Origin: a virus
Strand: one strand, 5' to 3'
DNA: 30,482 bases
Virus record (IMG/VR): IMGVR_UViG_3300031234_000028
Coordinates: 1-30,482 of that record
Positions 19 to 19,985 of this stretch are shown piece after piece. The notes under the pieces were generated by a model, which worked only from the letters and a program-made list of their open reading frames with translations, had not been told where the DNA came from and ran no database searches. A program made the translations under genes and the position numbers. The stretch's first letter is position 1. Each line of letters begins with the position of its first letter.

Positions 19-180
19 ATGAGCGCTCACCCGCACCCGGACGGCCCACGATTTCCGCTGCGGCTGGCGATCCCGATGAACGCGGAGATCGTCGCCGCGC
101 TGGTTGAGCGGGCGGCCACCGAGAGCATTCCCAAGACGACGCTGGCGCGGAAGTTGATCCTGGAGGGGTTACGGAAATGA
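19..180 (+). CDS. Small ribbon-helix-helix (Arc/MetJ-like) DNA-binding protein
   Basis: A 53-residue protein starting at ATG 19 behind a purine-rich ribosome site (GAGAGGGA, 6-13). After a short His/Pro-rich head, residues 11-20 (RFPLRLAIPM) look like the DNA-contacting beta strand. They are followed by two helices (about 21-36 and 38-52) separated by SIPKT, the plan of an Arc-like ribbon-helix-helix fold. Such dimeric proteins bind operators, so a regulator of the downstream operon is likely, but no operator was identified. Some small terminase subunits also use small DNA-binding folds, and this gene lies in the packaging cluster, so a packaging role cannot be excluded. Its stop overlaps the next start (ATGA, 177-180), implying translational coupling. 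The fold assignment is by pattern only. Confidence 0.6.
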   Translation: MSAHPHPDGPRFPLRLAIPMNAEIVAALVERAATESIPKTTLARKLILEGLRK

Positions 181-686
181 CGATCATCGCGTGGCGGGAT
201 GGGGTGATCGCGGCCGACACCGGCCACTGGCAAGGCCCGATCGATGTCGGCCCGGTCCAGAAGTTGAAGCGCCTGGCTGACGGGACGATCTATGGTTGCG
301 CCGGAGACTGCTCCGACATTCGCGAGTTCGAGGAATGGGCGGACATGGGATTTCCGACCGTGGAAAAACCGCCGAAATTCGAGGACTTCGCGGCGGTTCT
401 GATGAAGCCGGACGGCACGGTCTGGCAAACGGACGGCCTGCGGCCTCCCTACGCCATGCCGGGCGAGTTCGGCGCCGTGGGCATCGCCGAGCGGTTTGCC
501 CTGGGGTGTCTGGCCATGGGCGCGAGCCCAGAACAGGCGGTGGCCAAGGCGATCCAATACTGCGCCTATTGCAGCGGCGAAGTGGTGGTGGTGTCGTTGG
601 ACGATGATGGCGTCGCCGAACCCGACGAACCCGCCGTCAGCGTCGTCGACGGCCGAGACTGGCTCCGAAAGCGCGGACTGGCCTGA
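177..686 (+). CDS. HslV/proteasome beta-like Ntn-hydrolase peptidase
   Basis: A 169-residue protein resembling HslV, the peptidase of the bacterial HslUV protease. Removing the initiator Met exposes an N-terminal Thr (MTIIAWRDG), the nucleophile of this family. The HslV pattern AGDG is matched by AADT (Asp13 of the mature chain), and KKVRRL by QKLKRL (Lys28, equivalent to the catalytic Lys33). The next stretch, DGTIYGCAGD, matches the HslV strand KVIAGFAGG. The C-terminal part (AVGIAERFALGCLAMG, then two helices and a GEVVVVSLD strand) also fits. The length is close to HslV (about 175). No HslU-type ATPase is present here, so it may act alone, dock on a host unfoldase, or process virion proteins. 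The ribosome site GGAGGGG (162-168) is strong. Proteasome-like proteins are known in phages; this one's substrate is unknown. Confidence 0.8.
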   Translation: MTIIAWRDGVIAADTGHWQGPIDVGPVQKLKRLADGTIYGCAGDCSDIREFEEWADMGFPTVEKPPKFEDFAAVLMKPDGTVWQTDGLRPPYAMPGEFGAVGIAERFALGCLAMGASPEQAVAKAIQYCAYCSGEVVVVSLDDDGVAEPDEPAVSVVDGRDWLRKRGLA

Positions 687-1330: not shown

Positions 1331-3229
1331 ATGGCCCAGACCGCTCCCAAGGCGTCCAGCTATCTGAAGCTGCTGCCAGCCTTCTCCGCCGACCTTCGCA
1401 TTTCCTCCAAGGAGGTCATGCAGTCGGACGAGCGGGGGACCAAGCTTGTTCTCTGGGAATCGCAGAAGCGCGCCTTGAACTTCGTCGGTAAGGGGCTCGA
1501 TGACGGTATCCACACCTTTTACATCGCCAAGTCCCGCCAGCTCGGAATCACGACCGCGACGCTGGTGGTCGATGTGTTCTGGGCGGCGATGTTCCCCGGC
1601 CTCAATGGCTGCATCGTCACCGACACCGAGAAGAACCGGGACCGCAACCGTCAGATCATCGTCGGCTATGTCAATTCGTTTCCGGAAGGATACTTCGGGG
1701 ATTACTTCACGATCACGACCAATAATCGCCAAGTCATCCGTTTCTCCAACGGGTCACAGTTTGAGTTGCTGGTCGCTGGTGTACAGAAGAAGAAAAGTAC
1801 ATCTTGGGGCGAGGGTTCGGGCTACAATTATTGCCACCTGACCGAGGTCGCCGCCTACGGCGACGTGGCTGGCCTGGAATCCTTGGAGGAGGGCTTTGCC
1901 CAGGAAAATCCAAACCGGGTGTTCATCTACGAAAGCACCAGCAAGGGCCACAACCACTGGCGGGACCGCTATCTTGAAGGCCAGTCTGATCCATTCAGCA
2001 AGCGCTCGGTCTTCATCGGCTGGTGGGCGGGCGACACCAACCGGATCGAGCGCAACGACGCGCGCTTCGCGATGTTCGGCGAGGCCAAGCCCAGCGGGGC
2101 GGAACTGGAGAAGCTGAACGCCGTCAAGCTCCTCTACGACTGGATCGTGACGCCGGAACAACTTGCCTGGCACAGGTGGCGCTCGGCCAACCCCTCCGCC
2201 GACCTGGACCTCTTGCAGCAGAATCAGCCGTGGACGGCCGACGAGAGCTTCGTGATGACCGGCTACTCGTTCTTCCAGACGAGGCAGGTCAGCAAGGACA
2301 TCCAGGAAATCGCGTCTGGCGACTACGAGTACATCGCCTATCGCTACAACCTGACCAACAGCTTCTTCGAAATGACCCTGGTCCCGATCACCGATGAGGA
2401 TGACCGCGACCTGATCGAACTTCGCGTATGGGAGCCGCCGGTTCCGGAAGGCAAGTATGTGATCGGCTTCGATCCGGCCTGGGGCCGCACGGACCATGGC
2501 GACCGAAGCGTCATCGCCATCTGGCGCTGCTTCGCCGACAAGATGGTGCAGGTCGCCGAGTTCGCCACGGCCAGCGTCGAATTGATCCAATGCACCTGGG
2601 TTCTGGCGCATCTGGCCGGGGCCTACAAGGACTGCGTGGTCAACATCGAACTCAACGGGCCGGGCCGGGTGGTCATGGTGCAGTGGAACCAGCTTCTGGC
2701 CCAGATGCGCGACAAGGTGACCAACGCCCAGGACGGTCCCTCGACATGGGAGGACGCCCTGCCGACCGCCCGCTGGTATCTCTACCACAAGCCCGACACC
2801 ATGGGCGCGGGCTACGCCTACAACACCGACTCGTCGTCGCGGGTGAAGCAGGAGTTGCTGCACAATTTCCGGGGCCACTACTTCACCCGCGACCTGATGA
2901 TCCGGTCCATCCCCCTGCTCCAGGAAATGCTGATCGTCGTCCAGAACGGCAATGTCATCGGCGCCCCGGAAAGTTCCAACGGCGACTGTAAGGACGACCG
3001 GGTGTTCGCCTCCGCCTACGCCGTGGCGGCGTGGCTTGATTGGCGCCGGGTTCCGATGATATCCAATGGAGAGACCTACGAGCGGGCCATGAAGCTCAAG
3101 GAAGAGGGCGAGTTGAGCATGAACGAGCGCATCAACAAGATCGCCTACGGCTTCATGCATAAGGCCATAGAGGCCCAGGCCACCGCCGACAACCGGCCCA
3201 AGTGGCTCGCTGACCGTGGCTTAATTTGA
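1331..3229 (+). CDS. terL: Terminase large subunit (packaging ATPase and nuclease)
   Basis: A 632-residue DNA-packaging motor protein. The N-terminal ATPase contains a Walker A-like AKSRQLGITT (66-75), of the K/R-QLG-x-T/S kind usual in terminases. The aromatic/acidic CHLTEVAAY (168-176) carries the Walker B Glu172. The C-terminal RNase H-like nuclease begins at VIGFDPAWG, with Asp381 as first metal ligand, Glu440 in NIELNGPG as second, and Asp555/Asp556 in GDCKDDRVFA as third. All key residues are present, so it looks intact and active. It docks on the portal, cuts concatemers and pumps DNA into proheads. It is three bases from the J-domain gene and overlaps the next small gene by TGATG. No classical small subunit is evident upstream. 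Confidence 0.95.
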   Translation: MAQTAPKASSYLKLLPAFSADLRISSKEVMQSDERGTKLVLWESQKRALNFVGKGLDDGIHTFYIAKSRQLGITTATLVVDVFWAAMFPGLNGCIVTDTEKNRDRNRQIIVGYVNSFPEGYFGDYFTITTNNRQVIRFSNGSQFELLVAGVQKKKSTSWGEGSGYNYCHLTEVAAYGDVAGLESLEEGFAQENPNRVFIYESTSKGHNHWRDRYLEGQSDPFSKRSVFIGWWAGDTNRIERNDARFAMFGEAKPSGAELEKLNAVKLLYDWIVTPEQLAWHRWRSANPSADLDLLQQNQPWTADESFVMTGYSFFQTRQVSKDIQEIASGDYEYIAYRYNLTNSFFEMTLVPITDEDDRDLIELRVWEPPVPEGKYVIGFDPAWGRTDHGDRSVIAIWRCFADKMVQVAEFATASVELIQCTWVLAHLAGAYKDCVVNIELNGPGRVVMVQWNQLLAQMRDKVTNAQDGPSTWEDALPTARWYLYHKPDTMGAGYAYNTDSSSRVKQELLHNFRGHYFTRDLMIRSIPLLQEMLIVVQNGNVIGAPESSNGDCKDDRVFASAYAVAAWLDWRRVPMISNGETYERAMKLKEEGELSMNERINKIAYGFMHKAIEAQATADNRPKWLADRGLI

Positions 3230-3488: not shown

Positions 3489-3784
3489 CCGAAGCCTATC
3501 CCGAACCCAAACGCGGCCCCGGTCGTCCGCCGAAGCCCCCCGCCGCGCCTCTCGAAGCCGAGTCCGAAACCGTCAAAATCCTGCCGATGTCGTCCGCCCC
3601 TCATGACGGCAAGCCACTCTGGCTGACCGCCAACGGGGCGACGTGGGTCAGGGCGGCCTGGAGGTCGACGCGGGTCATGGACTACGAGAAGCGCCGGTTC
3701 GTGCCGGCCGGTTTCTGGGTGTTCCAGAACACGGTCAGGAAGATCGACTTCGAGCCGACCGGCTGGAGCGAACTCCATGAGTGA
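3485..3784 (+). CDS. Phage protein with an AT-hook-like head and DUF551-like body
   Basis: A 99-residue protein. ATG 3485 is chosen because it overlaps the previous stop (ATGA) and sits ten bases after GGGAG (3471-3475); an in-frame ATG at 3470 would add five residues. Near the N terminus is RGPGRPPKPP, a basic Gly-Arg-Pro core resembling an AT-hook that binds the minor groove. The rest (MSSAPHDGKPLWL, an AAW strand, AGFW, then PTGWSELHE) follows the layout of small phage proteins of the DUF551 type, which read like STAPKDGxPV...W...GWMPLPEP. No function is known for those. The hook is suggestive only, because Pro-rich linkers can mimic it. Confidence 0.6.
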   Translation: MTEAYPEPKRGPGRPPKPPAAPLEAESETVKILPMSSAPHDGKPLWLTANGATWVRAAWRSTRVMDYEKRRFVPAGFWVFQNTVRKIDFEPTGWSELHE

Positions 3785-4388
3785 AACCTATCTGGGCTCC
3801 GAGACGGTGGCGGCCGAGGGCTACCTACAGCCCAAGAGCTACCGCATCTTCTGTCTCTGCAACCGCTGCGGCAACGAATATTCGTGGGTGGCGAAGTCCC
3901 CCGGCGGAAAGGACCGCCCATGCCCGCGCAGGGCGTGCAAGGCCGAGGCCATGGAAGAGGACATCATGGAGCGGGCCGAGCGGCTGGCAACCATGCTGGC
4001 CGAGCAGCGAGCCCCGGCCGTGGTCGGGGCCAATAACCAGGTCCGCGCCATCGACACGACCGCCGAGATTGTCATGCAGGACTACAACATGACCGATCTG
4101 AAGACCAACGTGCGCGAGGGCGAGGGGGTGGCGCCGAAGCTGCCGGCGGCGCAACAGCGTCTGGCGGACGGGTTCTTTGGCGGCAAGGCGATCCGGGAAA
4201 CGCAAGGCAAGAGGGTGGGCGACCAGATGCAGCGCATCGCCGCGCGGGCGATCAAGGGGGCTTACGGCGCCTCGCCCATCAACCCCGGCGCCATTGCCGG
4301 CGGCAAGCCCGGAGTAAAGATACTGCGGCGGGTCAGTGGACCGATCGCGCCGACGCAGGCGCCAGTCAGGCAGTTGGGCCGGGGCTAG
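3777..4388 (+). CDS. Hypothetical phage protein with a putative zinc ribbon
   Basis: A 203-residue protein overlapping the previous gene by eight bases. Residues 23-54 hold five cysteines: FCLCNRC (Cys26, 28, 31) and CPRRAC (Cys49, 54). This is the spacing of a zinc knuckle pair around a GNEYSWVAKSPGG hairpin, like a zinc ribbon. An acidic helix follows (about 56-78). The remainder is polar, with a basic Ala/Gly-rich tail. The family is not recognised. Packed between the terminase and portal genes, it may be a DNA- or protein-binding accessory to packaging. Its stop overlaps that of the opposing gene (CTAG, 4385-4388). Confidence 0.65.
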   Translation: MSETYLGSETVAAEGYLQPKSYRIFCLCNRCGNEYSWVAKSPGGKDRPCPRRACKAEAMEEDIMERAERLATMLAEQRAPAVVGANNQVRAIDTTAEIVMQDYNMTDLKTNVREGEGVAPKLPAAQQRLADGFFGGKAIRETQGKRVGDQMQRIAARAIKGAYGASPINPGAIAGGKPGVKILRRVSGPIAPTQAPVRQLGRG

Positions 4389-4594
4389 GAGCCCTGCGTC
4401 GCCACCAGCTGCATGATGGCGTCCTGATTGTTGAAGCTGGCCCCGAACGCCTGGACTCCCTCGACAACCTGCGTCTCGCCATTGGCGTAGGTCACCAGGA
4501 CTTCCTTGGCGATGGCGTCATAGGTGGCGAATCTGACGATGGAGCCCAGGATTTGATAGGTCCATGTAGCGTTCGGATTTGGAAGCTCGGTCAC
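4385..4594 (-). CDS. Small KTSC-like protein (69 residues)
   Basis: Minus-strand gene with a GTG start at 4594, preceded by GAGGAAG in the tail of the portal gene, whose stop lies two bases upstream. The product reads TWTYQILGSIVRFATYDAIAKEVLVTYANGETQVVEGVQAFGASF. The order of a Ser/Ile strand, a Tyr-Asp, a second strand, Tyr, and a final helix with a small-residue/Phe motif resembles KTSC proteins, a small phage and bacterial family of unknown function. It is co-transcribed with the portal, which suggests a portal-related or accessory role. The similarity is weak and judged by eye. Confidence 0.55.
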   Translation of the reverse strand: MTELPNPNATWTYQILGSIVRFATYDAIAKEVLVTYANGETQVVEGVQAFGASFNNQDAIMQLVATQGS

Positions 4595-4596
4595 GC

Positions 4597-6381
4597 CTAC
4601 TTCTTCCTCGCCCCGCCCTGAAGCAACTTGAGCGCGCCCTGCGGGTCGTTCTTCTCCAGCTCCTGAAGTTGGGCCGCCTTGGCCGCCTCCCGCCGCTCCA
4701 GGCCGGCCACGAGGTTCTCCACGCCGCCGATGTCGGAGCGCTCAAGCACGTCTTCCGCCGAAATCGCGCCGATCTTGAGCAGGTCATACAGCAATGCCTT
4801 GGCCTCCGCCGCGAAGGCGGGCGAAGAGGAATGCGAATCGACCATCAGGGTCACGCCGTCATCAAGGTCAGCGAAGTGGAAATAGATCGGCACGAGGCCT
4901 GGCGCCGGCGGTGTGATCAGCGGATTGGCGGATGCCTTCTCGCCGCCGGCCGCCGCCTCCGGAACCCACGCCACCAGCTTGGTCGCCTCGTGCGCCTTGG
5001 CTTGGTCCAGCATCAGGCCGCCGAGCGACTCCACCGACCGCTCGATCAATAGGGCCGGGTCCTTGAAGCGCGGCGAGGATTGCTGGACCAGGGTCTCGGC
5101 ATGGCCCTGCGAGCGCACCCCCGCCTCGCCGCGCCCCTTGGTGATCGGCGGCTTGCCGCCAACCTCGTCCATCATCCGCTCGTATTCGTGCAGGGTCTCA
5201 TAGAGCCCGGCAGGGACTTCCGGGGCGACGTTCTTGACATCCGCTGTCGGCACGGTGTCCGCCCACCAGCCGCCCGGCTTGTTCAGCTTGGCGACCACGT
5301 TCTGATTGACGCCCGACCCGCCCTTGAAAAACTTCGGTGGGTCTTCCTGCTGGCGAAGCAGTCTGGCGATGCCATTGACCCGCGCGTTGATGGCTTCTTG
5401 CAGTAGCAGGACGTTGGCGATTTCCGGCCATGCCCAGAAGTAGCCATCCAGCGGCGAGGGGCAAACCTCGATAAACGGATGCTTTGCTTTCAGGTATGGG
5501 CTGTCGGCCTGGCTGTCTGTGTTCCAGCTCATGAAATTGGTGGTCTGGTACTTGCCGCGAATGAGCATGTCGTCGCCGACCAGCCAGAAGGTCGCCCAGT
5601 TCTCCCGCTCATCATCCCAGACCCAAAGTTCGTCCATCTGGAGCATGGACGCCTTCATGTCCGCGCTCATGGTCGGGCCGATGCTGGACATCCAGTCGAC
5701 GGTATTGCGGCCCTGAGCCGGCGGGTCATTGGCCCCGCGATAGGGTTGGAACGAGCCGACCACGATCTGCATCCCGGCGTTCATCACCGGGCTGTCGGCG
5801 ATCTTACTGACGTAGGAGCGCGCCTTGCGCTTCAGTTTGGCCTCGTCCGGGTGGCCGGCGATCATCCGGTCAAACTCATATTGCGAAATGTACATGCGGT
5901 GGTTGAACGCATCCATGTCGGTGTCGAGCGAGCCCCGGCTCTCCTGAAGCACGCCCATGGACTCCGGCTGGATCAGTTCAGGCTTGAACCCCGACCCCTT
6001 CCAGTTCTGCTTGATGAAGGTCTTTCCCTTGACCATGGACCACTTCACGCTGTCCGATATCAGGGTGTCGGTGTCCGACTGCCGGGCCATCTTCCGGAGC
6101 GACGCCGACGCCGCGTCCCCCTTGGCCTTTTCCTTGACGTTGGGAAGGTCTGGATCGGTGATCAGCCATTTGAGACTGACCGGAGAATAAAGCAGGCTGC
6201 TGAGATCGTCGATATAGGCTCCGGTCTTGTTATAGACCGCCGCGTCGGCCGCCGATGACGCGCCGTACAGGAAGTAGTTCTTGAAGGTTGCCCCGCGCTG
6301 GATGCGCTCCGCCTGCGATGTCATGCATTGATTGGCGACCTCCTGAACGAAGCCTTCCAACCTCTTGGGGGGAATACGCAT
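4597..6381 (-). CDS. Portal protein (podovirus type)
   Basis: A 594-residue protein, in the size range of podovirus portals. The N-terminal 200 residues form the wing (ATFKNYFLYGASSAADAAVY, then a helix-rich acidic/basic stretch). Around 323-350, NVLLLQEAINARVNGIARLL then RQQEDPPKFF has the typical portal stem-helix pattern (long helix, Asn-Arg, then DPPK). A crown-like region follows, with GKPPITKGRGEAGVRSQGHA (409-428) and a Lys-rich end. The portal forms a twelve-subunit ring at one capsid vertex, where terminase docks and DNA enters and leaves. It is odd that it lies on the strand opposite the terminase and capsid genes. The ribosome site before ATG 6381 is weak. No frameshift or missing region is seen. 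Confidence 0.85.
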   Translation of the reverse strand: MRIPPKRLEGFVQEVANQCMTSQAERIQRGATFKNYFLYGASSAADAAVYNKTGAYIDDLSSLLYSPVSLKWLITDPDLPNVKEKAKGDAASASLRKMARQSDTDTLISDSVKWSMVKGKTFIKQNWKGSGFKPELIQPESMGVLQESRGSLDTDMDAFNHRMYISQYEFDRMIAGHPDEAKLKRKARSYVSKIADSPVMNAGMQIVVGSFQPYRGANDPPAQGRNTVDWMSSIGPTMSADMKASMLQMDELWVWDDERENWATFWLVGDDMLIRGKYQTTNFMSWNTDSQADSPYLKAKHPFIEVCPSPLDGYFWAWPEIANVLLLQEAINARVNGIARLLRQQEDPPKFFKGGSGVNQNVVAKLNKPGGWWADTVPTADVKNVAPEVPAGLYETLHEYERMMDEVGGKPPITKGRGEAGVRSQGHAETLVQQSSPRFKDPALLIERSVESLGGLMLDQAKAHEATKLVAWVPEAAAGGEKASANPLITPPAPGLVPIYFHFADLDDGVTLMVDSHSSSPAFAAEAKALLYDLLKIGAISAEDVLERSDIGGVENLVAGLERREAAKAAQLQELEKNDPQGALKLLQGGARKK

Positions 6382-6400
6382 TCAGTAGTATCCGGTTGTC

Positions 6401-6406
6401 ATTCTA
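6401..6406 (-). promoter_or_regulatory. Possible -10 box for the portal operon
   Basis: Read on the minus strand this is TAGAAT, five of six matches to TATAAT, twenty bases before the portal start. No convincing -35 box stands 16-18 bases upstream, so this is a weak or activator-dependent candidate. It is listed because the portal operon must start in this interval. Confidence 0.3.
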
Positions 6407-6428
6407 AGTAAACCCGCAAAAGATTACG

Positions 6429-6458
6429 TTGACACGACTGATTTCGCCACCTTATTCT
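6429..6458 (+). promoter_or_regulatory. Sigma70-type promoter for the head operon
   Basis: A perfect -35 box TTGACA (6429-6434) is followed, after 18 bases, by TATTCT (6453-6458), which matches TATAAT at four of six positions. Transcription would begin near 6465 and read the small peptide gene and then the head genes. Downstream, CCCGG (6471-6477 region) and CCGGG (about 6488-6492) can form a short leader hairpin before the ribosome site AAGGAG (6505-6510). Confidence 0.6.
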
Positions 6459-6517
6459 TCGCGTCGTCACCCCGGTAGGCTCTCTCGCCGGGTACTTCAA
6501 ACCCAAGGAGACTTTCG

Positions 6518-6565
6518 ATGATCACGCGTTCCAAGCGTCACAAGGGCCGCAAGGGCCGGAAGTAA
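6518..6565 (+). CDS. Fifteen-residue highly basic peptide gene
   Basis: ATG 6518 stands seven bases after a consensus ribosome site (AAGGAG, 6505-6510) and about 53 bases after the predicted transcription start. The frame encodes MITRSKRHKGRKGRK and stops at TAA 6563. Ten of fifteen residues are Lys, Arg or His, with the near-repeat HKGRKGRK. It could be a nucleic-acid-binding micropeptide, or a leader peptide controlling the operon by its translation. The strong ribosome site is better than those of many large genes here. It resembles no family known to me. Confidence 0.5.
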   Translation: MITRSKRHKGRKGRK

Positions 6566-6578
6566 TTCCGACCTCCCC

Positions 6579-6625
6579 GGCGGTCCGACTTCCTCCCCTG
6601 GCCGGCCGCCTGGGAGCCTCTTTTT
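6579..6625 (+). terminator. Possible intrinsic terminator or attenuator after the peptide gene
   Basis: GGCGG (6579-6583) can pair with CCGCC (6606-6610), and the flanking CCC/GGG extends the stem after one mismatch. An alternative stem pairs CTCCC (about 6593-6597) with GGGAG (6611-6615). TCTTTTT follows at 6619-6625. The layout fits termination or attenuation between the peptide gene and the head operon, but the loop is large. Confidence 0.4.
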
Positions 6626-6644
6626 AGGAGCCTAAGTCGCTTCA

Positions 6645-7082
6645 ATGCCGATGCCGATACCAGGGATGGGCGGAGGCGCGCCGCCTCCAGGGATGCCCCC
6701 GCCGGGTATGGGTGGCGGTGGAGCGCCCCCCGGATCGCCGCCGATCGGCACGGGACCGGCCACGGCCCCAGGACCCCAGGCAGGCTCCGCCGCCCAGGGC
6801 ATGTCGCAAGTCAAGCTCGCCGTCGAGATGCTTCAGAAGTCGCTCGTCGGCATTCCCATGGGCTCACCACTCCACAACGACGTGATGAAGGCGATCTCCT
6901 CGCTGTCCAAGAACATCGCGCAGGGCGCCGACGATCAGTCCGCCATGATGCAGCAATTGACCCAACTCGCCCGCAGCGCGCAGCAGGACCCCGCGCGCCA
7001 GGCGCAGATGCGGGCCATGTCCCCCGGCGGCGCCCCTCCAGGCGGCGCTCCACCCCCCTCACCCGCCCCGATGGCGGCATAG
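6645..7082 (+). CDS. Pro/Gly/Met-rich protein with a helical core
   Basis: A 145-residue protein. Residues 1-50 are low complexity (MPMPIPGMGGGAPPPGMPPP and similar), and the last 25 return to Pro/Gly/Ala (SPGGAPPGGAPPPSPAP). Between them, residues 52-118 form two or three amphipathic helices (SQVKLAVEMLQKSLVGI, then NDVMKAISSLSKNIAQ, then a Gln-rich helix). The flexible ends and short helical core suggest an oligomerising head-assembly factor. Position before the scaffold supports a head role, but I do not recognise the family. AGGAG (6626-6630) is rather far (14 bases) from ATG 6645. Both ends are disordered-looking, and the internal ATG at 6651 is an alternative start. Confidence 0.65.
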   Translation: MPMPIPGMGGGAPPPGMPPPGMGGGGAPPGSPPIGTGPATAPGPQAGSAAQGMSQVKLAVEMLQKSLVGIPMGSPLHNDVMKAISSLSKNIAQGADDQSAMMQQLTQLARSAQQDPARQAQMRAMSPGGAPPGGAPPPSPAPMAA

Positions 7083-7092
7083 GAGAACGATC

Positions 7093-7278
7093 ATGTCCAC
7101 CGGCAAGTTTCCCCGCGCCTACGTCCGCGACGTGCCCGCCGAAGGGTCCGATCCGATGATGATTTACGTCCCCTTCGACAACACGCCCTACGGCTCGCCC
7201 AAGTCGGCCATGCCCAAGGACTTGAAGCGCCCGGGTTCGCTTGAGCACGTCGGCGGCACGGCGGGGAAGAAAGGCTGA
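7093..7278 (+). CDS. Small hypothetical head-cluster protein (61 residues)
   Basis: It starts at ATG 7093 after AGGAG (7081-7085) and ends three bases before the scaffold gene. The product begins MSTGKFPRAYVRDVPAEGSD and has a short hydrophobic strand (MMIYVPFDN), then a basic Gly-rich end (GGTAGKKG). Family not recognised. The good ribosome site and tight packing between two head genes argue that it is real. A minor head or assembly component is possible. Confidence 0.6.
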   Translation: MSTGKFPRAYVRDVPAEGSDPMMIYVPFDNTPYGSPKSAMPKDLKRPGSLEHVGGTAGKKG

Positions 7279-7281
7279 TCC

Positions 7282-7863
7282 ATGGCCGAAGCCACCCCCT
7301 CCCAACTGCGCGCCGAAAAACTGGTGGCCGACCTGCTGGCCGACGCCAATGTGAGCGCCACCGTCCGCGCCAAGGCGAAGGCGCTTTTCCCGGACGCCGG
7401 CTTCTCGTTCCCGGAAGACCGAATCGATCCGCTGCTTTCGCCCCTGGTCGCCGAGAACGCGGCCCTCAAGGCGCGGCTGGACAAGTGGGAGGAAGATCGC
7501 GCCGCCGAGAAGGCCACCGCCGAGGAAAACGCCGCCAGGACCACCTTCGAGCAGCGCGTGGCCGAGGCCAAGCAAAAATATTCCCTCAACGCCGAGGGGG
7601 TCGAGGCGGTGCTGGAGCGCATGAAGGCGACCGGCAACTATACCGACGTGGACGCCACCGCCGCGTGGTTCGTCCAGGCCAATCCGCCGGCCAAGGCCCC
7701 GCGCTCCACCTACGGCGCCAGCCGGATCAACATCTTCGAGGGCGGGGGCGAGGATGAATATAAGGAACTGATGCGCGATCCCGACGCGTTCCTCGACGCC
7801 CAACTCAACAAGTTCGCCGCCGATCCGGCCGCCTACGAGGCGGAGACGTTCGGAATCCAATGA
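7282..7863 (+). CDS. Capsid scaffold protein (putative)
   Basis: A 193-residue, highly charged protein directly before the major capsid gene, the usual scaffold position. Residues 55-105 are rich in Ala/Glu/Lys/Arg with heptad-like spacing (AENAALKARLDKWEEDRAAE and onward), fitting a coiled coil. A helical segment follows (KYSLNAEGVEAVLERMKATG). The C-terminal region (EDEYKELMRDPDAFLDAQLN) is acidic and helical; in scaffolds the C terminus commonly binds the capsid protein. The sequence of scaffolds is poorly conserved, so the call rests on composition, size and synteny. The HslV-like peptidase upstream could in principle remove it, but nothing in the sequence shows this. Confidence 0.7.
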   Translation: MAEATPSQLRAEKLVADLLADANVSATVRAKAKALFPDAGFSFPEDRIDPLLSPLVAENAALKARLDKWEEDRAAEKATAEENAARTTFEQRVAEAKQKYSLNAEGVEAVLERMKATGNYTDVDATAAWFVQANPPAKAPRSTYGASRINIFEGGGEDEYKELMRDPDAFLDAQLNKFAADPAAYEAETFGIQ

Positions 7864-7894: not shown

Positions 7895-8965
7895 ATGGCG
7901 TTCCCCAATACTCCGGTCCCCGGCCTCACCGGAAGCGGGATCGTCCCCGGTGGAGTTCTTGGTTCTCAATTGGCCGCGCTGACTCGGCGCGCGGTAATTC
8001 CGTCGGTCTACACGCAGATTTACCAAAGCCATGTCGCGTTGAGCATGTTCATGGCCAACGCCAAGCCGGCTCGCGGCGGTATCAGCAGCATCACCATTCC
8101 GATCCAGGGCGCCAGCTTCGTCTCGTTCGGCTGGGGCTCGTTTTCCGGCGACTTCGCCCTGCCGGAAGACCAGGCCGCCATCCAGGACGCCCGCTACGAC
8201 CTGAAGCTGGGCATGGTCCCGATCGGCTTCTTCGGCATGGAAGCGATCGTCCAGTCGTCCGAAGTGATCATCCCCAAACTCCGCGCCCAGATGAGCGATG
8301 CCGCGGTGGTCATGAAGCAAGCCTACGCCCAGGCCCTCTACTCCAACAACTACGGCCAGAACCTGGTCTGGGACAGCCTGTCGATGGCCTACGACGACGG
8401 GACCAATGTCCCGTCCTACGGCGGTATCGCGCGGGCCGGAAACCAGTACTGGGCCGGCCAGTTGATCACCAACATGCCCGTAGCCGCGACCTCGCGGGTG
8501 GGCATGATGCAGCTCCTGGCGCGGGTGCAGGCCGGCGCCGGCGGCGAGGCTCCGGACTTCGCGGTCATGAACCCGGCCAACTGGGCGGTTCTGGCCGGCG
8601 ACTACATGAACCTGGAGATGTTCACGACCAAGCCGAAGTCGATCTACGAGAAGGATGATGTGGTCAACGCCGGGTTCCGTGGCATCTCCATCATGGACAC
8701 GCCGATCTTCCCCGACCCCTTCTGCCCGCTCGGCTCCATGTTCATCGTCAACTCACGCTACACCGGACTCTATATGTCGGAGTACGCGCCAATGACCTTC
8801 AGCGGGTTCGAAAGCCAGATTCCCCTGGGCCAGATTTCGGAAATCGGCGTCCTGATTTCGTGCTCCGATCTGGTCTGCGCCAAGCCCTCCAGCGGCGCGC
8901 AGGTTCAGGGCATCACGGGTGTCGCCTGGCCCAACACCCCCACCAGTCAACCGGCCGTCATCTAG
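7895..8965 (+). CDS. Major capsid protein
   Basis: A 356-residue protein after the scaffold gene. Its features suit an HK97-like shell protein of podovirus type: an N-terminal arm (VLGSQLAALTRRAVIPSVYT), an extended strand region rich in Gly/Ser/Phe (GASFVSFGWGSFSGDFALPE, 75-94), a long spine helix (IIPKLRAQMSDAAVVMKQAY, 124-143), then alternating strands in the A and P domains (PDFAVMNPANWAVLAGD). The family could not be named from sequence alone. The ribosome site is GAAGGA (7879-7884). It is followed after 13 bases by the repeat-bearing protein, and both end at the terminator at 9798-9828, so they are likely to be expressed at high level together. Confidence 0.85.
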   Translation: MAFPNTPVPGLTGSGIVPGGVLGSQLAALTRRAVIPSVYTQIYQSHVALSMFMANAKPARGGISSITIPIQGASFVSFGWGSFSGDFALPEDQAAIQDARYDLKLGMVPIGFFGMEAIVQSSEVIIPKLRAQMSDAAVVMKQAYAQALYSNNYGQNLVWDSLSMAYDDGTNVPSYGGIARAGNQYWAGQLITNMPVAATSRVGMMQLLARVQAGAGGEAPDFAVMNPANWAVLAGDYMNLEMFTTKPKSIYEKDDVVNAGFRGISIMDTPIFPDPFCPLGSMFIVNSRYTGLYMSEYAPMTFSGFESQIPLGQISEIGVLISCSDLVCAKPSSGAQVQGITGVAWPNTPTSQPAVI

Positions 8966-8978
8966 GAGAAACTGACCA

Positions 8979-9770
8979 ATGCCTATCCAGTATGGCGGTC
9001 CCGGCGTCACTCCATCGCTCGGCGCCCTCGTCACCACGGCGATCGAACTTCAAGGCGCGCAAGCGTACGCCATCCCCGCCGGGCGGTGGAATGTCAATCT
9101 TGGGACCAAGACGGTCTTCCAGGAGTTCAACCCCATCACCCTGGGCTACCAGAATATCGAGGTTGGCTCCACCAGCACGCTCGGCGGAACGGTGTTCTCC
9201 GATGGAGTCAATTATCGGCTGTTCAACCCGACCGGCACCGGAACCGGATCGACCATCTCCGCCGCTGGGTCCGGCTATCTGACGCCGCCCGTGGTAACCG
9301 CCTCGTCCGGCGGATCGGTGTGGCGGGCCATCGTCGGCGGCGCGGTCAGTTCGACCATCTCCATCACCAATGGCGGGACCAACTACACCTATCCGCCGCT
9401 GGTGCTGATCTCCCCGCCTCCCGGCGGCGGCATTCCGGCCACCGCCTACGCCACCCTGACGGCCGGCGTAGTCTCCGCCGTGACCCTGGTCGCGGCCGGA
9501 GCCGGCTACGCTTTCCCGCCGACTATCTCGTTCGTCAACGATCCGCGCGAGGGGCTCAACGGTGTGGCCCAGGGCTACAACGCGGCGGCGACCTGCACCT
9601 TGACCGGCTCTGGAACCGTCACCGGCCTGACGCTGATCGATCCGGGCGCGGCTGTTGCCTCCGCCGCTCCGACCCTGGCCTTCACCTCCGCCTCCGGTTC
9701 GGGTGCGGCGGCGACCGTGACGGGTTGGGTCGCGGCGGCCCTGGATGCGATCACCATACTTCCGACCTGA
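8979..9770 (+). CDS. Capsid-associated protein with GSGY-type beta repeats (putative decoration protein)
   Basis: A 263-residue protein with ribosome site AGGAGAAA (about 8964-8971). Residues 1-85 form a distinct N-terminal domain (IELQGAQAYAIPAGRWNVNL). From about residue 86 to the end lie roughly four imperfect repeats: an AAGSGYLTPPVV edge, GGAVSSTISITNGGTNYTYP, GVVSAVTLVAAGAGYAFPP, then GTVTGLTLIDPGA. These are the same repeats found in the tail hub protein (10641-13433) and two fibre-cluster proteins. Position after the capsid gene suggests a head decoration or cement protein displaying a repeat domain outward. The family is not recognised by name. Repeat recognition is secure; the role is inferred. 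Confidence 0.65.
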   Translation: MPIQYGGPGVTPSLGALVTTAIELQGAQAYAIPAGRWNVNLGTKTVFQEFNPITLGYQNIEVGSTSTLGGTVFSDGVNYRLFNPTGTGTGSTISAAGSGYLTPPVVTASSGGSVWRAIVGGAVSSTISITNGGTNYTYPPLVLISPPPGGGIPATAYATLTAGVVSAVTLVAAGAGYAFPPTISFVNDPREGLNGVAQGYNAAATCTLTGSGTVTGLTLIDPGAAVASAAPTLAFTSASGSGAAATVTGWVAAALDAITILPT

Positions 9771-9840: not shown

Positions 9841-10641
9841 ATGGCCCTGAGCGACTATCTGAACACGACATCGGCGCTTCTAAGGGACCAGAACTTCGCC
9901 TTCATCAGCAAGACGCAGCTCACCGGATGGATCAACACGAGCCGTGTCACCGTCGCCAAGCGCACCGGCTGCATTCGCCGCTTCGTGACCGGACAGTCGG
10001 CCTGGGGGGCCACGGCGCAACCTGGCTCGATGATCCCCGGCGCCATCCAACCCGGCGCCCTGCCGGCCGCGCAGCCCAGCATCACCGGATCGGCGGTGGG
10101 CGGTCTTCAGACCATCCCCGGCGTCGAGCGCTACCCCTATGAGGGCTTCTTCAACCCGTATATGCAACAGCAGTACGACGGCATTCGCGGGATCGTCGAT
10201 GTCATCACCCTGTCGGTCAACTGGGGTGGCGGCGGGGCTTTCAAGCCGGCTCTGGACTGGTTGCCATGGGAGGACATGCAGGCCTACTGCCGTTCGGTCT
10301 CGACTCAGATGTTCAACGACCCTGCCGTCTGGAGCGTCTATAACGACGGCGAGGATGGCGAGGTGTGGATGTGGCCGCCCCCCTCGCAAATCGGCGTCAT
10401 CGAGGCGGACACAACCTGTCTGCCTGCGCCGCTGAACACCGACGACGACTTCGACGCCATTCCCAAGAGTTTTCGCGACGCCATCAAGTTCGGGGCCGCC
10501 TCCCTGGCCTTCCTGGGCTCGCAGCGCTACGCCCAGGCGGAGGTCATGGATAGCCTGTTCATGAAGGCTCTTGGCGTCGATCGAGTAGCCGTGGATCGGG
10601 GAAAGACGCAGCGGTACTACCCGCAAACCAGGTTTGGCTGA
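9841..10641 (+). CDS. Head-tail adaptor (portal-closing) protein, putative
   Basis: A 266-residue protein following the head terminator. The N terminus (MALSDYLNTTSALLRDQNFA, then a helix with a Trp) and the C-terminal helical segment (PKSFRDAIKFGAASLAFLGS, about 215-234) fit the helical adaptor proteins that podoviruses place under the portal. A middle segment rich in Trp and acidic residues (DGEDGEVWMWPPPSQIG) may be the outward sheet. A 60-residue Gly/Pro/Ala insertion (about 50-90) is less typical. It is coupled to the hub protein by TGATG. The ribosome site is poor. The assignment rests on position and pattern; a tail-tube A-type protein is the alternative. Confidence 0.6.
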   Translation: MALSDYLNTTSALLRDQNFAFISKTQLTGWINTSRVTVAKRTGCIRRFVTGQSAWGATAQPGSMIPGAIQPGALPAAQPSITGSAVGGLQTIPGVERYPYEGFFNPYMQQQYDGIRGIVDVITLSVNWGGGGAFKPALDWLPWEDMQAYCRSVSTQMFNDPAVWSVYNDGEDGEVWMWPPPSQIGVIEADTTCLPAPLNTDDDFDAIPKSFRDAIKFGAASLAFLGSQRYAQAEVMDSLFMKALGVDRVAVDRGKTQRYYPQTRFG

Positions 10642-13433
10642 TGGCCAACGTCGTTGACCAAGCCTCGCGCGGGATGGGCCTGCCGAACCATTGGAAGTTC
10701 TTCTCGCCCTACCCCTTCAGCGGGATCAACCTTCAGTCCTCGCCGGTCGCGGTCAACGATCAGGAGTTTCTGTGGGTCGAGAACTTCCTGAAGTTGGGCG
10801 ATGGCTATCTGAGGACCGCTTGGGGACCAGGCGCGGCCTTTTACACCGCCCCAACCGGCAAGACGATCATCAGCTTCAATTGGTACGTCATCGGCGAGAG
10901 CGACTATGTGGCGGTGTTCCTGAGCGACGGATCGGCCGTCCAAGTGGCGTGGCCCGGCGGCGCCCAGACCGTCATCGGGCCGGCCGCGACGTTCTATAAC
11001 GCCACCTCCGGTTTCATCCCAGCGGTCAGCCAATATGGCGCGCTATACATCCTGATTTCCAACCGCAATTCGGTCAACGACTACTGGGCCTGGGATGGCG
11101 CGCTACTTTATGGCGCGGGCACGGCGGCGCCCAACGGCGTGGTTCTGCTGTCGAGTGGCCTGAAATATGACACTCTGCCCACGGTAACCGCCTTCGGCGG
11201 CCTGGGGTCGGGCATGGTGGTCGTTCCGTCGATCAATGCCGGTGGCGTGGTCTATCTCAACATCACTAACCCCGGCCACGGCTACGGCGTCGGCGATGTT
11301 GTGCAACTGGCCTTCAGTGGCGGCGGGAGCGACACCTCGGCTATCCTGACGGCGAACCTGAACACCGGCGGCGTGGCCGGTGTCAATATCACCGGCGGCG
11401 GAACTGGATATACCTCGGCCACGGCGGCCTTCAGCGGCGGCGGCGGCACGGGCGCGGCCGGAACCGTCATTATCGGTTCCGGCGTCGCCACGCTCAACCT
11501 GACGGCTGGCGGGTCAGGTTACGGCAGTGGCGCCGGGGTCAGTTTTACCGGCGGCGGTGGGTCAGGGGCCACGGCGACCGCCACGGTCACCGGCGGGGTC
11601 GTCACGGCGCTTACGATCACCAGCCCAGGGTCTGGCTACACCTCGGCGCCCACGGTGGCCATTATCGGGGCGGGGACCGGAGCCACAGCCACGGCGACGG
11701 TCCAGAACGACATCATCATCGGCGTGACCATGACCAACCCCGGCACGGGTTACACGACCGCGCCCACGGTGACCTTCAGCGGTACGGGAACCGGCGCGAC
11801 CGGCGTGGCGGTGCTCGACCCCACCAGCGTGGAGGGCGTGACCGTGGTCAATCCGGGGTCCGGGTTCGTCTACGCGCCGGCCATCGCTTTCGTCGGTGGA
11901 GGCGGGACCGGGGCGACCGGGACCGTGGAACTGGTCGGGACCTCTATCGCCAAGGTCAATGTGATCTCTGGGGGACAGAACTATCAGAAGGTCCCCACGG
12001 TGATCTTCACCGGCGGCGGAGCGGGGACCGGCGCGGCGGCTACGGCGATCCTGGGCGGCGGGGAGGTGATCGCCATCAACCTGACCGATGGAGGGTCCGG
12101 CTATACGACCAACGTCGAAGTCATCATCCAGCCGGCGAATTTCAACACCACCAGCCAGGATACCGGGACCGGGGCCGGGGCCATCGCCATCTTTCAACCC
12201 ACCTCTATCGCCGGGGTGCAGATGATGAGCTATGGGCTCAACTACACGACCGCCCCAGCCATCGAGGTCCAGTCGGGGGCCAACAGCTCGGCCTACGCCA
12301 CCGTCCAACTCATGCCGTTCGGTGTGTCGGGATCGTCCATCGAGACGTTTCAGTCTCGGGTGTGGATCTGCGATCCGGCCCCCGGCCAGTTTTCGCCACT
12401 GCCCACCGGCGGCAACTTCGCGGTTAGCGCGCCCGGCTCGATCACCGACTTCGCGACTTCCGACGGCGGCCTGCTGTTCACCAACTCCGACTCGTTCCTC
12501 AAGAAGCGCTATGTCGCCATCCACCAGTCTAACGGCTACCTCTACTTCTTCGGGGACCATTCCTGTTCGGTGGTCTCCAACGTCCAGACTAGCGGCAACC
12601 CGGCGACCACGACATTCGCCTATCAGAACGTCGATCCCCAGGTTGGCCTGTCCTGGCGAGACAGCTTGATCGACTTCGGCCGGTCAACCCTATTCGCCAA
12701 CGAGACGGGGCTCTATGGTCTCTACGGCGGTGCGGTGTCGCGCATCTCCTCCAAGCTGGCGACGCTGTTCGACGATGCGGTGTTCCCGCCCACCGGCGGC
12801 GCCCTGGTCCCCACCTCGGCCATCGCCACGCTGTTCGACATCAAGCATGTGATGATGCTGATGACGGTGACTGACCCTGATACCGAAGCGGCGCGGAACG
12901 TCATGGTCACATGGAACGAGCGGGAGTGGGTGGTCACCTCGCAGGGGCTCGCTCTGACCTTCATCGGATCGCGCACTTTCAACTCGACCTATTACGCCTA
13001 CGGGACCGATGGGGCCTCTCTCTACCCGCTGTTCGCCCAGTCGTCCAACACCCTGACCAAGCGGCTGGATACCAAGCTATACGGCAACGACAAGCCGTTC
13101 ATGACCAAGGAGATGGATGCGCTCTATCTGGTGGCGTCGGACCTGTCGGCCGGGGCGGTCGGCATCGCCATGGACGTGACCGCCGTCTCGTCCGGCCAGG
13201 CGCTTCAGAACCCGTTCGATACGACCACCCAGAACGCGACCTACGCCGACCCCTTCCTTCAGCCGATCGATTTCGCCTCCCCCTCGCCCTACTGGGCCAC
13301 CTGGGGAAGCGGGACTGGCGGCGGGTCCGTTCCGTTCACCAGCATGGGGCTCCGGTTCACGACCACCAGTCCGGATTTTGCTTTGGGCCATCTCATGATA
13401 GCTTACCATGATAGTTCCGCCATCGCGGGCTAA
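10641..13433 (+). CDS. Tail hub / DNA-stabilising propeller protein with a ten-repeat insertion
   Basis: A 930-residue protein. The N-terminal 165 residues (FLWVENFLKLGDGYLRTAWG, GDYVAVFLSDGSAVQVAWPG-like strands, YGALYILISNRNSVNDYWAW) look like propeller blades of podovirus tail hub proteins (P22 gp10 or T7 tubular B-like, judged by pattern). Residues 169-560 are ten imperfect GSGY-type beta repeats. The blade pattern resumes from about 566 (IETFQSRVWICDPAPGQFSP, NGYLYFFGDHSCSVVSNVQT, DETGLYGLYGGAV-like) to about 880. The repeats therefore appear inserted between blades rather than appended, so they probably project from the hub. The protein would close the portal channel and anchor fibres. 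The hub assignment is inferred; repeats are seen directly. Confidence 0.7.
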   Translation: MANVVDQASRGMGLPNHWKFFSPYPFSGINLQSSPVAVNDQEFLWVENFLKLGDGYLRTAWGPGAAFYTAPTGKTIISFNWYVIGESDYVAVFLSDGSAVQVAWPGGAQTVIGPAATFYNATSGFIPAVSQYGALYILISNRNSVNDYWAWDGALLYGAGTAAPNGVVLLSSGLKYDTLPTVTAFGGLGSGMVVVPSINAGGVVYLNITNPGHGYGVGDVVQLAFSGGGSDTSAILTANLNTGGVAGVNITGGGTGYTSATAAFSGGGGTGAAGTVIIGSGVATLNLTAGGSGYGSGAGVSFTGGGGSGATATATVTGGVVTALTITSPGSGYTSAPTVAIIGAGTGATATATVQNDIIIGVTMTNPGTGYTTAPTVTFSGTGTGATGVAVLDPTSVEGVTVVNPGSGFVYAPAIAFVGGGGTGATGTVELVGTSIAKVNVISGGQNYQKVPTVIFTGGGAGTGAAATAILGGGEVIAINLTDGGSGYTTNVEVIIQPANFNTTSQDTGTGAGAIAIFQPTSIAGVQMMSYGLNYTTAPAIEVQSGANSSAYATVQLMPFGVSGSSIETFQSRVWICDPAPGQFSPLPTGGNFAVSAPGSITDFATSDGGLLFTNSDSFLKKRYVAIHQSNGYLYFFGDHSCSVVSNVQTSGNPATTTFAYQNVDPQVGLSWRDSLIDFGRSTLFANETGLYGLYGGAVSRISSKLATLFDDAVFPPTGGALVPTSAIATLFDIKHVMMLMTVTDPDTEAARNVMVTWNEREWVVTSQGLALTFIGSRTFNSTYYAYGTDGASLYPLFAQSSNTLTKRLDTKLYGNDKPFMTKEMDALYLVASDLSAGAVGIAMDVTAVSSGQALQNPFDTTTQNATYADPFLQPIDFASPSPYWATWGSGTGGGSVPFTSMGLRFTTTSPDFALGHLMIAYHDSSAIAG
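11145..12320 (+). repeat. Array of ten degenerate GSGY-type protein repeats
   Basis: Within the tail hub gene (residues 169-560) a unit of 36-40 residues recurs about ten times. Each reads roughly NPGSGYTSAPTVTF, GGGGTGATATATV, then GVVTALTIT. The Gly-x-Gly-Tyr turn and the Gly-rich loop are the most constant parts. The DNA copies are well diverged, so the array is old or under selection to differ. Alternating strands and Gly turns suggest a beta-solenoid or beta-prism. Confidence 0.85.
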
Positions 13434-17384: not shown

Positions 17385-19985
17385 ATGCCTGACGGCAATC
17401 CATTCGGCCAACCATCGCCCCCCGCCGCGCCACCGCCACAGGGCGATATCCTGCCTGTCCAGTGGTGGAAGGATTTCGGCGAGCGTCAGAAAGACGCGGC
17501 TGGCCGGATCGAGCAGGATATGCAACCCCGCTCGCCGCTTCAGACCGTCCAGGACGCGGCGGGAGGCCCGTTTAGCCCCCATGCCCTGAAGACCGGCGGC
17601 GACGTGTTCGACTACGCCATGTCGCCCCTCCAGGGGGCGTTTGACACGATGATCGGGCGTCCGGTAGAGCAACTATCCGGCGGTCGGATCAAGAAGAAGA
17701 CGGCCGGCGATGTTGCCTCGTTCGTTGTCCCGTTTGGCGGCGAAGTGGCGGCCGAACGCGCCATGGCGAACGCGGCGCGGAAGATTGGCGTGACCGTCGA
17801 GCAGTTCAAAACCATGCTGAAGGCCCGCGAGGCCGCCTGGGCTGCCAACAAAGGAGAATTGGCTAGACGAACGGCGACCCAGGAGCGCATAGGCGCCAAG
17901 CCGAGCCTGACCGTGGGAACCACCAGCCCCGCGCTCCGGACCATAGCCTCACACCTCGGTGGCACAGCTCTCGCCGGTTATGGCCCTCGCGCGGCGGTGA
18001 AGCGAACCGGCGAGGCGATTGAAAAGACCGGAGCGGAGACGGCGGCGAAGATCGGCCAAGTCGGAACCGATAAGTCTATTGGCGACACCATCCGCGCTGG
18101 GATCAAGCGTTTTTCGCAAAGCAACCCGGACGGCGCTCCGGTCAGGGAAAATCTGGACCCTGGCACTACCGCCGCCCTGGAGTCGGCGGCACGGTCCACG
18201 AAATCCAACATCATCGGCTTTGGCAACAAGGCCAATGTGTTGATGGAGCGCGCCGATCGCCTGGTGGGCAATCCGACCTCCTTGATCAAGGCCGATAACA
18301 CGGCGGCGGCGCTCAATGACCACATGGCCCTGTTTGACAATCCGTCGTTGAGCCAGATGCACCGTAACCCGATCCTGGAGAGATATCAGGGCATCCTCGC
18401 CAAATCTCAGGGCAAGCTATCCTGGCAGGACGCTCGTCAGCTCCGCACCCGCATCAGGATGATGATGACGACACCGGAACTCCGCATCGGCATAGACGAA
18501 GCGGAGCTGAAGCGCATCTATGGCGCGCTCAGTGAAGACCTTCAGGGTGGGGCCTATGCCTTGGGGAAGAAGGCCGGCGGCGACGCCTATAGGGAGGCCA
18601 ACAAGTTCTATTACGCTGGCCAGAAGCGGATCGAGAACACGCTGAACGACGTTTTCAACACTCAGAGCAGCGAAAAAATCTTCGCCGACCTGTACGCTAA
18701 CGCCAGTTCAGGCGTGGCCGGGAAGGGAAATCTGGAGAAGTTGACGCAGGTCAAGCGCTCCCTGACGCCCAGCGAATGGCGCGACTTTTCAGCCTCGGTC
18801 CTCAGCCAGATGGGGGTAACGACACCTGGAAAGCGCGGCGAGCAGGTCTTTTCGCCGGAAACCTTCTTTACCAATTTTGAGAATATGAGTCAGCGTGTCG
18901 GGGGGCGCGAAGATAGCGCGGTCGATAGCGGTCTGAAGCTTCTGTTCGAGGGCGAAGGCAAGGAGGGCACGTTCTCTGCCATCCAGGACATGGCGGAAAA
19001 TTCCGGTTTCCTGCGAGAACTTCGCAAGCTCTACAACCACTCTCAATCCGGCTATACGGCGGCCGACATGGGCATGTTGGGGGGCATGATGGCGGTGGGG
19101 GCGGAGGGCGGGGTTGGGCACGACCTTTTCCTGAAGATTCCAGCCATCGCGATGACCTTGGCCGGCAACTTCGCCCTCGAAAACGCTTCGTTCGTCAAAT
19201 GGCTCGCGAAGGTGAGTAGCGGCACGGGGCCAAAGACCACCGACGCGATCATGGACAGCCTGGGCCAACTCGCCAAGACCAACGCCGCCGTGACCCCTAT
19301 CTACCACGCCGTGGGCGCCGCTATTCATCCTCACGGCCAGGATGTGAGCTTGCCAGCCGATCACAAAGAGCCGGACGCTCCGGATGACGGCAATCCATTC
19401 GGCAAGGGCGAGCCGGACGCTCCGGATGACGGCAATCCATTCGGCAAGGGCGAGCCGGACGCTCCGGATGACGGCAATCCATTCGGCAAGGGCGAGCCGG
19501 ACGCTCCCACCGAAGAAACCGATACCTCCCCCGCCACGCCAGAGGGCGGAGACCTGACGCCAGCCGCCTACACGCCAGACGCCCAGGTGGGCGACTATCT
19601 CAGCTACCACCTGGGCGGCCCGGTCGTGATCACCGGCGGCCCTCGAACAGAAGATCGCAACGACGAAGTGGGCGGGGCCAAGAACTCCGCCCACCTGAAG
19701 GGCGAGGCATGGGATTTCAAGGTTCCCGGCCAGGACAATGAGGAGACGGGCCAGAAGCTCGCCCGGTCGGGTATCCAGTTCGACCAGATCGAAATCACCC
19801 CCACCCACGTCCACGTTTCGTTTGATCCCCGGATGCGCGGCGAAATCATCCACGTCGGCCGCTATGGCGAGCGACGCAACGTCACGCCGGGCTCGCCTCG
19901 CGACGATCTTCCGGATATCAGCCATATGAGCGATGACGAACTGATGGCTCTGGGGGACGCTGGCGAGCCGACCGATGGACAATGA
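17385..19985 (+). CDS. Large internal virion protein with a C-terminal M15 peptidase domain
   Basis: An 866-residue protein. The body (about 1-650) is mostly helical, with a hydrophobic Gly-rich stretch near residues 561-600 (GMLGGMMAVGAEGGVGHDLF onward) that could cross a membrane. Residues 662-708 are three identical 14-residue units plus a partial one. The end (about 720-830) is an M15-type peptidase: SAHLKGEAWDF supplies His770 and Asp777, and THVHVSF supplies His810, the zinc-ligand set, with QFDQIEIT before it. M15 enzymes cut peptide cross-links in peptidoglycan. The arrangement fits a lysozyme-like ejection protein that opens the wall during DNA entry. The N terminus (PDGNPFGQP) echoes the repeat unit. 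The family of the body is unknown. Confidence 0.75.
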   Translation: MPDGNPFGQPSPPAAPPPQGDILPVQWWKDFGERQKDAAGRIEQDMQPRSPLQTVQDAAGGPFSPHALKTGGDVFDYAMSPLQGAFDTMIGRPVEQLSGGRIKKKTAGDVASFVVPFGGEVAAERAMANAARKIGVTVEQFKTMLKAREAAWAANKGELARRTATQERIGAKPSLTVGTTSPALRTIASHLGGTALAGYGPRAAVKRTGEAIEKTGAETAAKIGQVGTDKSIGDTIRAGIKRFSQSNPDGAPVRENLDPGTTAALESAARSTKSNIIGFGNKANVLMERADRLVGNPTSLIKADNTAAALNDHMALFDNPSLSQMHRNPILERYQGILAKSQGKLSWQDARQLRTRIRMMMTTPELRIGIDEAELKRIYGALSEDLQGGAYALGKKAGGDAYREANKFYYAGQKRIENTLNDVFNTQSSEKIFADLYANASSGVAGKGNLEKLTQVKRSLTPSEWRDFSASVLSQMGVTTPGKRGEQVFSPETFFTNFENMSQRVGGREDSAVDSGLKLLFEGEGKEGTFSAIQDMAENSGFLRELRKLYNHSQSGYTAADMGMLGGMMAVGAEGGVGHDLFLKIPAIAMTLAGNFALENASFVKWLAKVSSGTGPKTTDAIMDSLGQLAKTNAAVTPIYHAVGAAIHPHGQDVSLPADHKEPDAPDDGNPFGKGEPDAPDDGNPFGKGEPDAPDDGNPFGKGEPDAPTEETDTSPATPEGGDLTPAAYTPDAQVGDYLSYHLGGPVVITGGPRTEDRNDEVGGAKNSAHLKGEAWDFKVPGQDNEETGQKLARSGIQFDQIEITPTHVHVSFDPRMRGEIIHVGRYGERRNVTPGSPRDDLPDISHMSDDELMALGDAGEPTDGQ
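19368..19507 (+). repeat. Tandem 42-base direct repeat, three full copies plus 14 bases
   Basis: Three identical 42-base copies (19368-19409, 19410-19451, 19452-19493) and a partial copy (19494-19507) encode EPDAPDDGNPFGKG. The exact identity implies recent amplification or homogenisation. The acidic, Pro/Gly-rich unit likely forms a flexible linker between the body and the M15 domain. Copy number may vary among relatives. Confidence 0.95.

Follow-up and report, generated by a model that had tools for sequence, protein, structure and literature searches.

Apparent repeated in-place inversion of the portal gene in a lineage of tailed phages, and a candidate family of polybasic micropeptide genes beside it

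The stretch of DNA analysed here, a viral contig of 30,482 bases that is referred to below as the window, carries a head module in which the portal gene is opposite to the other head genes. The large subunit of the terminase (1331-3229, plus strand) was identified by its match to phrog_2 (E 4.9e-12), and the major capsid protein (7895-8965, plus strand) by its match to phrog_9953 (E 3.9e-20). A scaffold-like protein (7282-7863, plus strand) was assigned from a sub-threshold match to the Pfam family Phage_scaffold and from its conserved place before the capsid gene. Three further conserved genes of the module are on the plus strand: o203 (3777-4388), whose product has paired cysteines; o145 (6645-7082), which opens the series of long genes in the capsid unit and encodes a helical protein with Pro/Gly-rich ends and a predicted structure of low confidence (pLDDT 61); and the small gene o61 (7093-7278). 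The portal gene (4597-6381, 594 aa) lies on the minus strand and runs against the terminase, scaffold and capsid genes, and downstream of it on the same strand is an ORF of 69 aa (4385-4594). An earlier sequence-only reading of this DNA had placed the portal and one small gene on the opposite strand, and our analysis confirmed this placement, as the flanking ORFs are all on the plus strand.

Comparison of the window's portal with annotated portals by tblastn gave 28% identity at 92% coverage, which indicates homology. Searches of Pfam, PHROG and PDB with the sequence of this portal protein returned no useful match, and several other members of the portal alignment matched PHROG portal families. 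The AlphaFold model of the protein (pLDDT 80) was compared with the PDB by Foldseek, and the best matches were the podovirus portals of Pan3 (E 8e-15), SU10 (2e-14), T7 (3e-12) and N4. Because of the homology to annotated portals, the PHROG matches of the relatives and the modelled fold, the product of ORF 4597-6381 is predicted to be a podovirus-type portal.

Homologues of the 69-aa ORF were found only in near-identical contigs, and its slot is filled by different genes in relatives. Different long ORFs were seen behind the portal in the portal-strand block of L053 (4036-6582), L058 (3683-6671), L011 (1908-4025) and L041 (1271-1477), all of them on the minus strand. The ORFs of these four genomes include glycine-rich tail-like and membrane-like kinds, as if accessory genes were inserted into the block behind the portal. 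In L005, a truncated ORF that resembles an NAD-dependent epimerase follows the portal on the portal strand from about 4790 (plus strand); it starts with MIVITGAAGFIGSNLVAELN, and CTATAGGA precedes both this ORF and the portal.

The window's contig is an unfinished metagenomic fragment, and an inverted fragment wrongly joined in it would produce the same picture. However, an identical portal orientation and gene order were found in contigs from four other IMG datasets, which are 99.98-100% identical to the window and have different end points, and the same order is present in dozens of diverged genomes; the chance of such an artefact is negligible. The relatives were gathered through their capsid protein, blind to portal orientation. 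Among the loci with both genes, a few near-copies included, the portal is opposite to the capsid gene in 73, many of them diverged, and co-directional in 50. The comparison of gene order in related genomes thus upholds the inverted placement that had been read from the window. Since independent contigs and a deep clade have the same arrangement, misassembly is excluded and the inverted portal is not an assembly artefact. A search of a phage collection at the DNA level with this region gave no match.

The outgroups, including Mx8 and two Manatee Spring phages (MW202753 and MW202825), have a co-directional portal, and the portal flip is therefore derived. A careful tree was built from the concatenated capsid, portal and terminase, with L005 left out, and single-gene trees were built as well. 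Most of the inverted genomes fall in one main clade of the concatenated tree, with a support of 100/100. Outside this clade, the portal is also inverted in L068, L070, L073 and L104, of which L070, L073 and L104 are each represented by one contig; L104 is paired at 100/100 with its sister L103, whose portal is co-directional. Four orientation changes are needed on the tree and the starred branches force at least two, counts that alone do not separate gains from losses. A single orientation change was found in 0 of the 200 bootstrap trees. The portal has thus turned around more than once in this lineage, at least twice.

Orientation changes in such number, one of them between the sisters L103 and L104, might also come from an invertible, phase-variable cassette, which would be switched back and forth when inverted repeats on either side of the portal recombine. 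In the four genomes scanned (the window, L043, L103 and L104), neither long nor near-perfect inverted repeats were found around this gene. Moreover, one orientation is common to all of the near-identical contigs, and in the main clade, which makes up 68 rows of the capsid tree, every portal that is present is inverted. We consider a reversible cassette highly improbable, and prefer repeated, derived inversions of the portal.

On the downstream side of the inverted segment, o203 and the 69-aa ORF end in converging stop codons, as had been described from the sequence, and these overlap in a palindrome, CTAG (4385-4388), which is common to both. In co-directional relatives o203 abuts or overlaps the portal start, as in L075 and L102, where the o203 stop overlaps it. 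This link is lost in the inverted genomes, in which the stop codons of o203 and the portal are often 0-18 nt apart. A symmetrical hairpin was found at or near the convergent junction in L016, L024, L027, L034, L038 and L099. The hairpins of L038 and L027, with a stem of 14-15 pairs and A and T runs on both sides, could in principle stop both transcripts and act as bidirectional terminators. No terminator hairpin was found by the scan at the convergent stops of the window.

On the other side of the portal, the interval 6382-6644 had been taken as a divergent control region. It is indeed divergent and has a conserved TTGACA, but it also holds a micro-ORF (6518-6565, plus strand), and the control region as we describe it extends from the portal start to this micropeptide gene (6382-6517). 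Scanning and conservation revealed a putative sigma-70-like promoter in it, TTGACA-18-TATTCT (6429-6458, plus strand), which faces the capsid genes. Of the 35 main-clade representatives, 24 have an exact TTGACA at a distance of 46-53 nt from the portal start, as counted by hand and with L051 read from its printed sequence, and a weaker second hexamer lies about 18 nt beyond the TTGACA in the main clade. TTGACA is absent from the matching place in co-directional relatives, and its conserved spacing is absent from L068, L070, L073 and L104, which are inverted but do not belong to the main clade.

The scan of the region reported no sigma-70-like promoter on the portal side. An element of the ATAGGAT type was seen by eye close upstream of the portal start in many main-clade genomes. 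Among the 12 genomes scanned for it, 11 have one copy and L063 has two: there, GATAGGATCGGATGACATG occurs twice by the portal start, about 43 nt apart (approximately 3130-3195, portal strand). The element points to some portal-specific signal, which matches no known promoter. A phage-RNA-polymerase promoter was considered for this element and rejected, as a single copy in 11 of 12 genomes does not fit a repeated phage promoter. Near-palindromes and tiny upstream ORFs by the portal start, also seen by eye, were too inconsistent to claim, and no known RNA elements were found in the region.

Because of the divergent region, the conserved TTGACA, the junction terminators in relatives and the lost overlap of o203 and portal, it is well supported that the portal would be expressed separately from the capsid and terminase units. 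The sequence-only reading had suggested that independent expression may set the amount of portal. The first part of this suggestion agrees with the sequence marks given above, the terminators being those of several relatives. As to the second part, the inversion is unnecessary for correct portal amounts, because about 50 relatives keep the portal co-directional.

We propose the following course of events for this podovirus-like lineage. The ancestral order on one strand, as the outgroups show, was terminase, o203, portal, micropeptide(s), o145, scaffold and capsid. The trees show that the portal, which lay between o203 and the micropeptide gene, was afterwards reversed at its own site on at least two occasions. 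Three transcription units would result. The first would comprise terminase and o203; the second, with the portal, would read back towards the first and stop at their convergent junction; and the third would comprise micropeptide, o145, scaffold and capsid, and in the main clade would be driven by the conserved TTGACA-type promoter. The portal would then likely be neither translated in a chain with o203 nor co-transcribed with the capsid, and its level and timing could be set separately. The micropeptide gene keeps its leading place in the capsid unit in either portal orientation. As a whole, an explanation that combines a derived and repeated in-place portal flip, three units and a selected polybasic micropeptide appears to us quite probable.

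The persistence of both orientations among related genomes, together with the lack of a recognisable portal-side promoter, would also fit a neutral rearrangement, in which transcripts from elsewhere cover both strands, expression is unchanged and the new order was fixed by drift. This is unlikely, in that the inverted arrangement is deeply conserved and is accompanied by a conserved TTGACA and by putative bidirectional terminators at the junction. Separate transcription units therefore remain our preferred reading of the inverted order.

The micropeptide gene of the window, MITRSKRHKGRKGRK (6518-6565, plus strand), has an AAGGAG Shine-Dalgarno sequence just upstream and belongs to a polybasic family that is located between the portal and o145. 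Genes for such peptides were found at this place in relatives with either portal orientation, in one to three copies, and examples are MARHKGRKGRRK, MARKARKGRKARK and MARRHKRGKRK. The peptides are 9-23 aa in length (median 13 aa) and have a median net charge of +7. When a micro-ORF was required to have 8-25 aa, with K/R/H making up at least half, and a Shine-Dalgarno sequence (the strict definition), one was found in 83 of the 96 distinct gaps, against 0.28 expected from dinucleotide shuffles, and no strict micro-ORF was found on the reverse strand of these 96 gaps. Strict micro-ORFs had a density of 2.3 per kb in the gaps and of 0.007 per kb in the remainder of these contigs. Of the 13 gaps that failed the strict test, most have a micro-ORF with a longer, less basic N-terminus, and when the definition was applied to the last nine residues only 3 of the 96 gaps were without one.

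In genome pairs chosen by capsid identity, the pN/pS of the micro-ORFs was 0.43-0.45 in frame and 1.5-1.8 in the other two frames, which served as controls; at a capsid identity of at least 85% the values were 0.43 and 1.57-1.83. In these capsid-paired genomes, the divergence of the 30 nt downstream of the micro-ORF is more than double that of the micro-ORF itself. Pairs over a wide range of capsid identity (70-98%) gave a weaker signal, 0.76 in frame versus 1.15-1.41 off frame. A pN/pS of 0.23 was discarded, as it was biased by the selection of similar peptides, and was replaced by the values from the capsid-identity pairs. The peptide MARKARKGRKARK is encoded identically by five different DNA sequences. 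From the gap counts, the in-frame pN/pS and the five DNA sequences for one peptide, we infer through codon evolution that the micro-ORFs are translated and that purifying selection maintains a polybasic product.

The micro-ORFs are short and lie upstream of the capsid unit, and polybasic chains can slow ribosomes. They could accordingly be leader peptides, which would regulate the translation of o145 in cis by ribosome stalling on the polybasic codons. However, the distance from micropeptide to o145 ranges from 37 to 1506 nt, and 34 of the 96 gaps have two or three copies. The variable spacing and the multiple copies fit an attenuator less well than a peptide that acts in trans, and we regard leader peptides as rather unlikely.

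For a peptide that would act in trans, a comparison is offered by the J/VP8 proteins of Microviridae, short Arg/Lys-rich peptides that guide or bind packaged DNA inside the capsid (PMC11281519). Both are short polybasic peptides encoded in a virion gene cluster, whereas the Microviridae are ssDNA viruses with a different capsid fold. J/VP8 proteins are recognised by homology and by docking of the C-terminus in a mostly hydrophobic capsid pocket; the window-type micropeptides end K/R-rich, without a hydrophobic tail, and are not classed as members. By this analogy, and because of its place heading the scaffold-capsid unit and its composition, our hypothesis is that the most likely binding target of the micropeptide, as heads assemble or DNA is packaged, is DNA itself or an acidic partner, with a DNA-binding, J-protein-like head peptide as the leading guess. 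We tentatively put forward that these peptides of 9-23 aa form a previously undescribed polybasic family, near-universal in the head module of this dsDNA phage lineage. They may be a tailed-phage counterpart of the J protein or of protamine, with an action in trans on head assembly or on the packaged DNA.

The sequence-only reading had started from the premise that the head genes of tailed phages normally run in one direction. This was too strong, as in phage P2 (Peduoviridae; P/Q and O-N-M-L operons) the portal also diverges from scaffold and capsid. In the annotated record of P2, each of the two units has a promoter, and an activator site lies between the promoters; set beside this site, the ATAGGAT-type element is found near the portal start of many main-clade genomes, with one copy in most of those scanned. 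In P2 the large subunit of the terminase goes with the portal, whereas in the window the terminase is on the capsid strand. The window's portal further differs from that of P2 in having flipped without the terminase, in converging on the terminase unit, in the apparently repeated flips within its lineage, and in a divergent gap that carries a micropeptide gene.

Podoviruses of the Mx8/PhiGT1 type have a distant capsid protein (26-27%) and a similar order of terminase, portal and then head genes, but in Mx8 all of these are co-directional, and no micro-ORF of Mx8 passed our scan for polybasic micro-ORFs preceded by a Shine-Dalgarno sequence. The Manatee Spring phages (Bacteriophage sp. MW202753 and MW202825) have homologous terminase, portal and capsid, and two polybasic micro-ORFs lie between the portal and the position of o145. 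They differ in that the portal is co-directional and the micro-ORFs are unannotated, with minus-strand hypothetical genes over or next to them. Micro-ORFs were seen in the portal-o145 gaps of L005-L150, and in two GenBank relatives they are not annotated. In L007 (8246-8506) and L008 (4740-5038), minus-strand hypothetical genes of the GenBank records lie over, or end beside, plus-strand micro-ORFs and are probably spurious gene calls. Hydrogenobaculum phage 1 was rejected as a relative, since it has the terminase alone in common. Nothing direct on an inverted portal or on a polybasic peptide by the portal was found in the literature, within an incomplete coverage of journals.

Head gene order in tailed phages is often treated as fixed, and the present lineage shows that it can be broken repeatedly at the portal. 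Sister genomes with opposite portal orientations allow testing of what co-transcription is for. The micropeptide family is the more surprising result: a conserved family of micro-genes beside the portal is missed by standard annotation. If true, these polybasic micropeptides would be among the smallest phage genes, lost to gene callers with a length cut-off; and if their action on DNA or the capsid is in trans, dsDNA phages would have in them a minor head component of a new kind.

Several other genes of the window were also observed. An HslV-like peptidase family protein (177-686, plus strand; phrog_1040, E 3e-31) is adjoined by a DnaJ-domain protein (686-1327). In a protein of 866 aa (17385-19985, plus strand), which is possibly a virion-associated lysin, the C-terminal domain is endolysin-like (phrog_894) and a GEPDAPDDGNPFGK segment is repeated. 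Repeated Gly/Thr-rich units of the type GGGGSGATATATV are found in the long proteins encoded at 10641-13433 and 25746-28544 (plus strand), and units that resemble these repeats are also present at 8979-9770.
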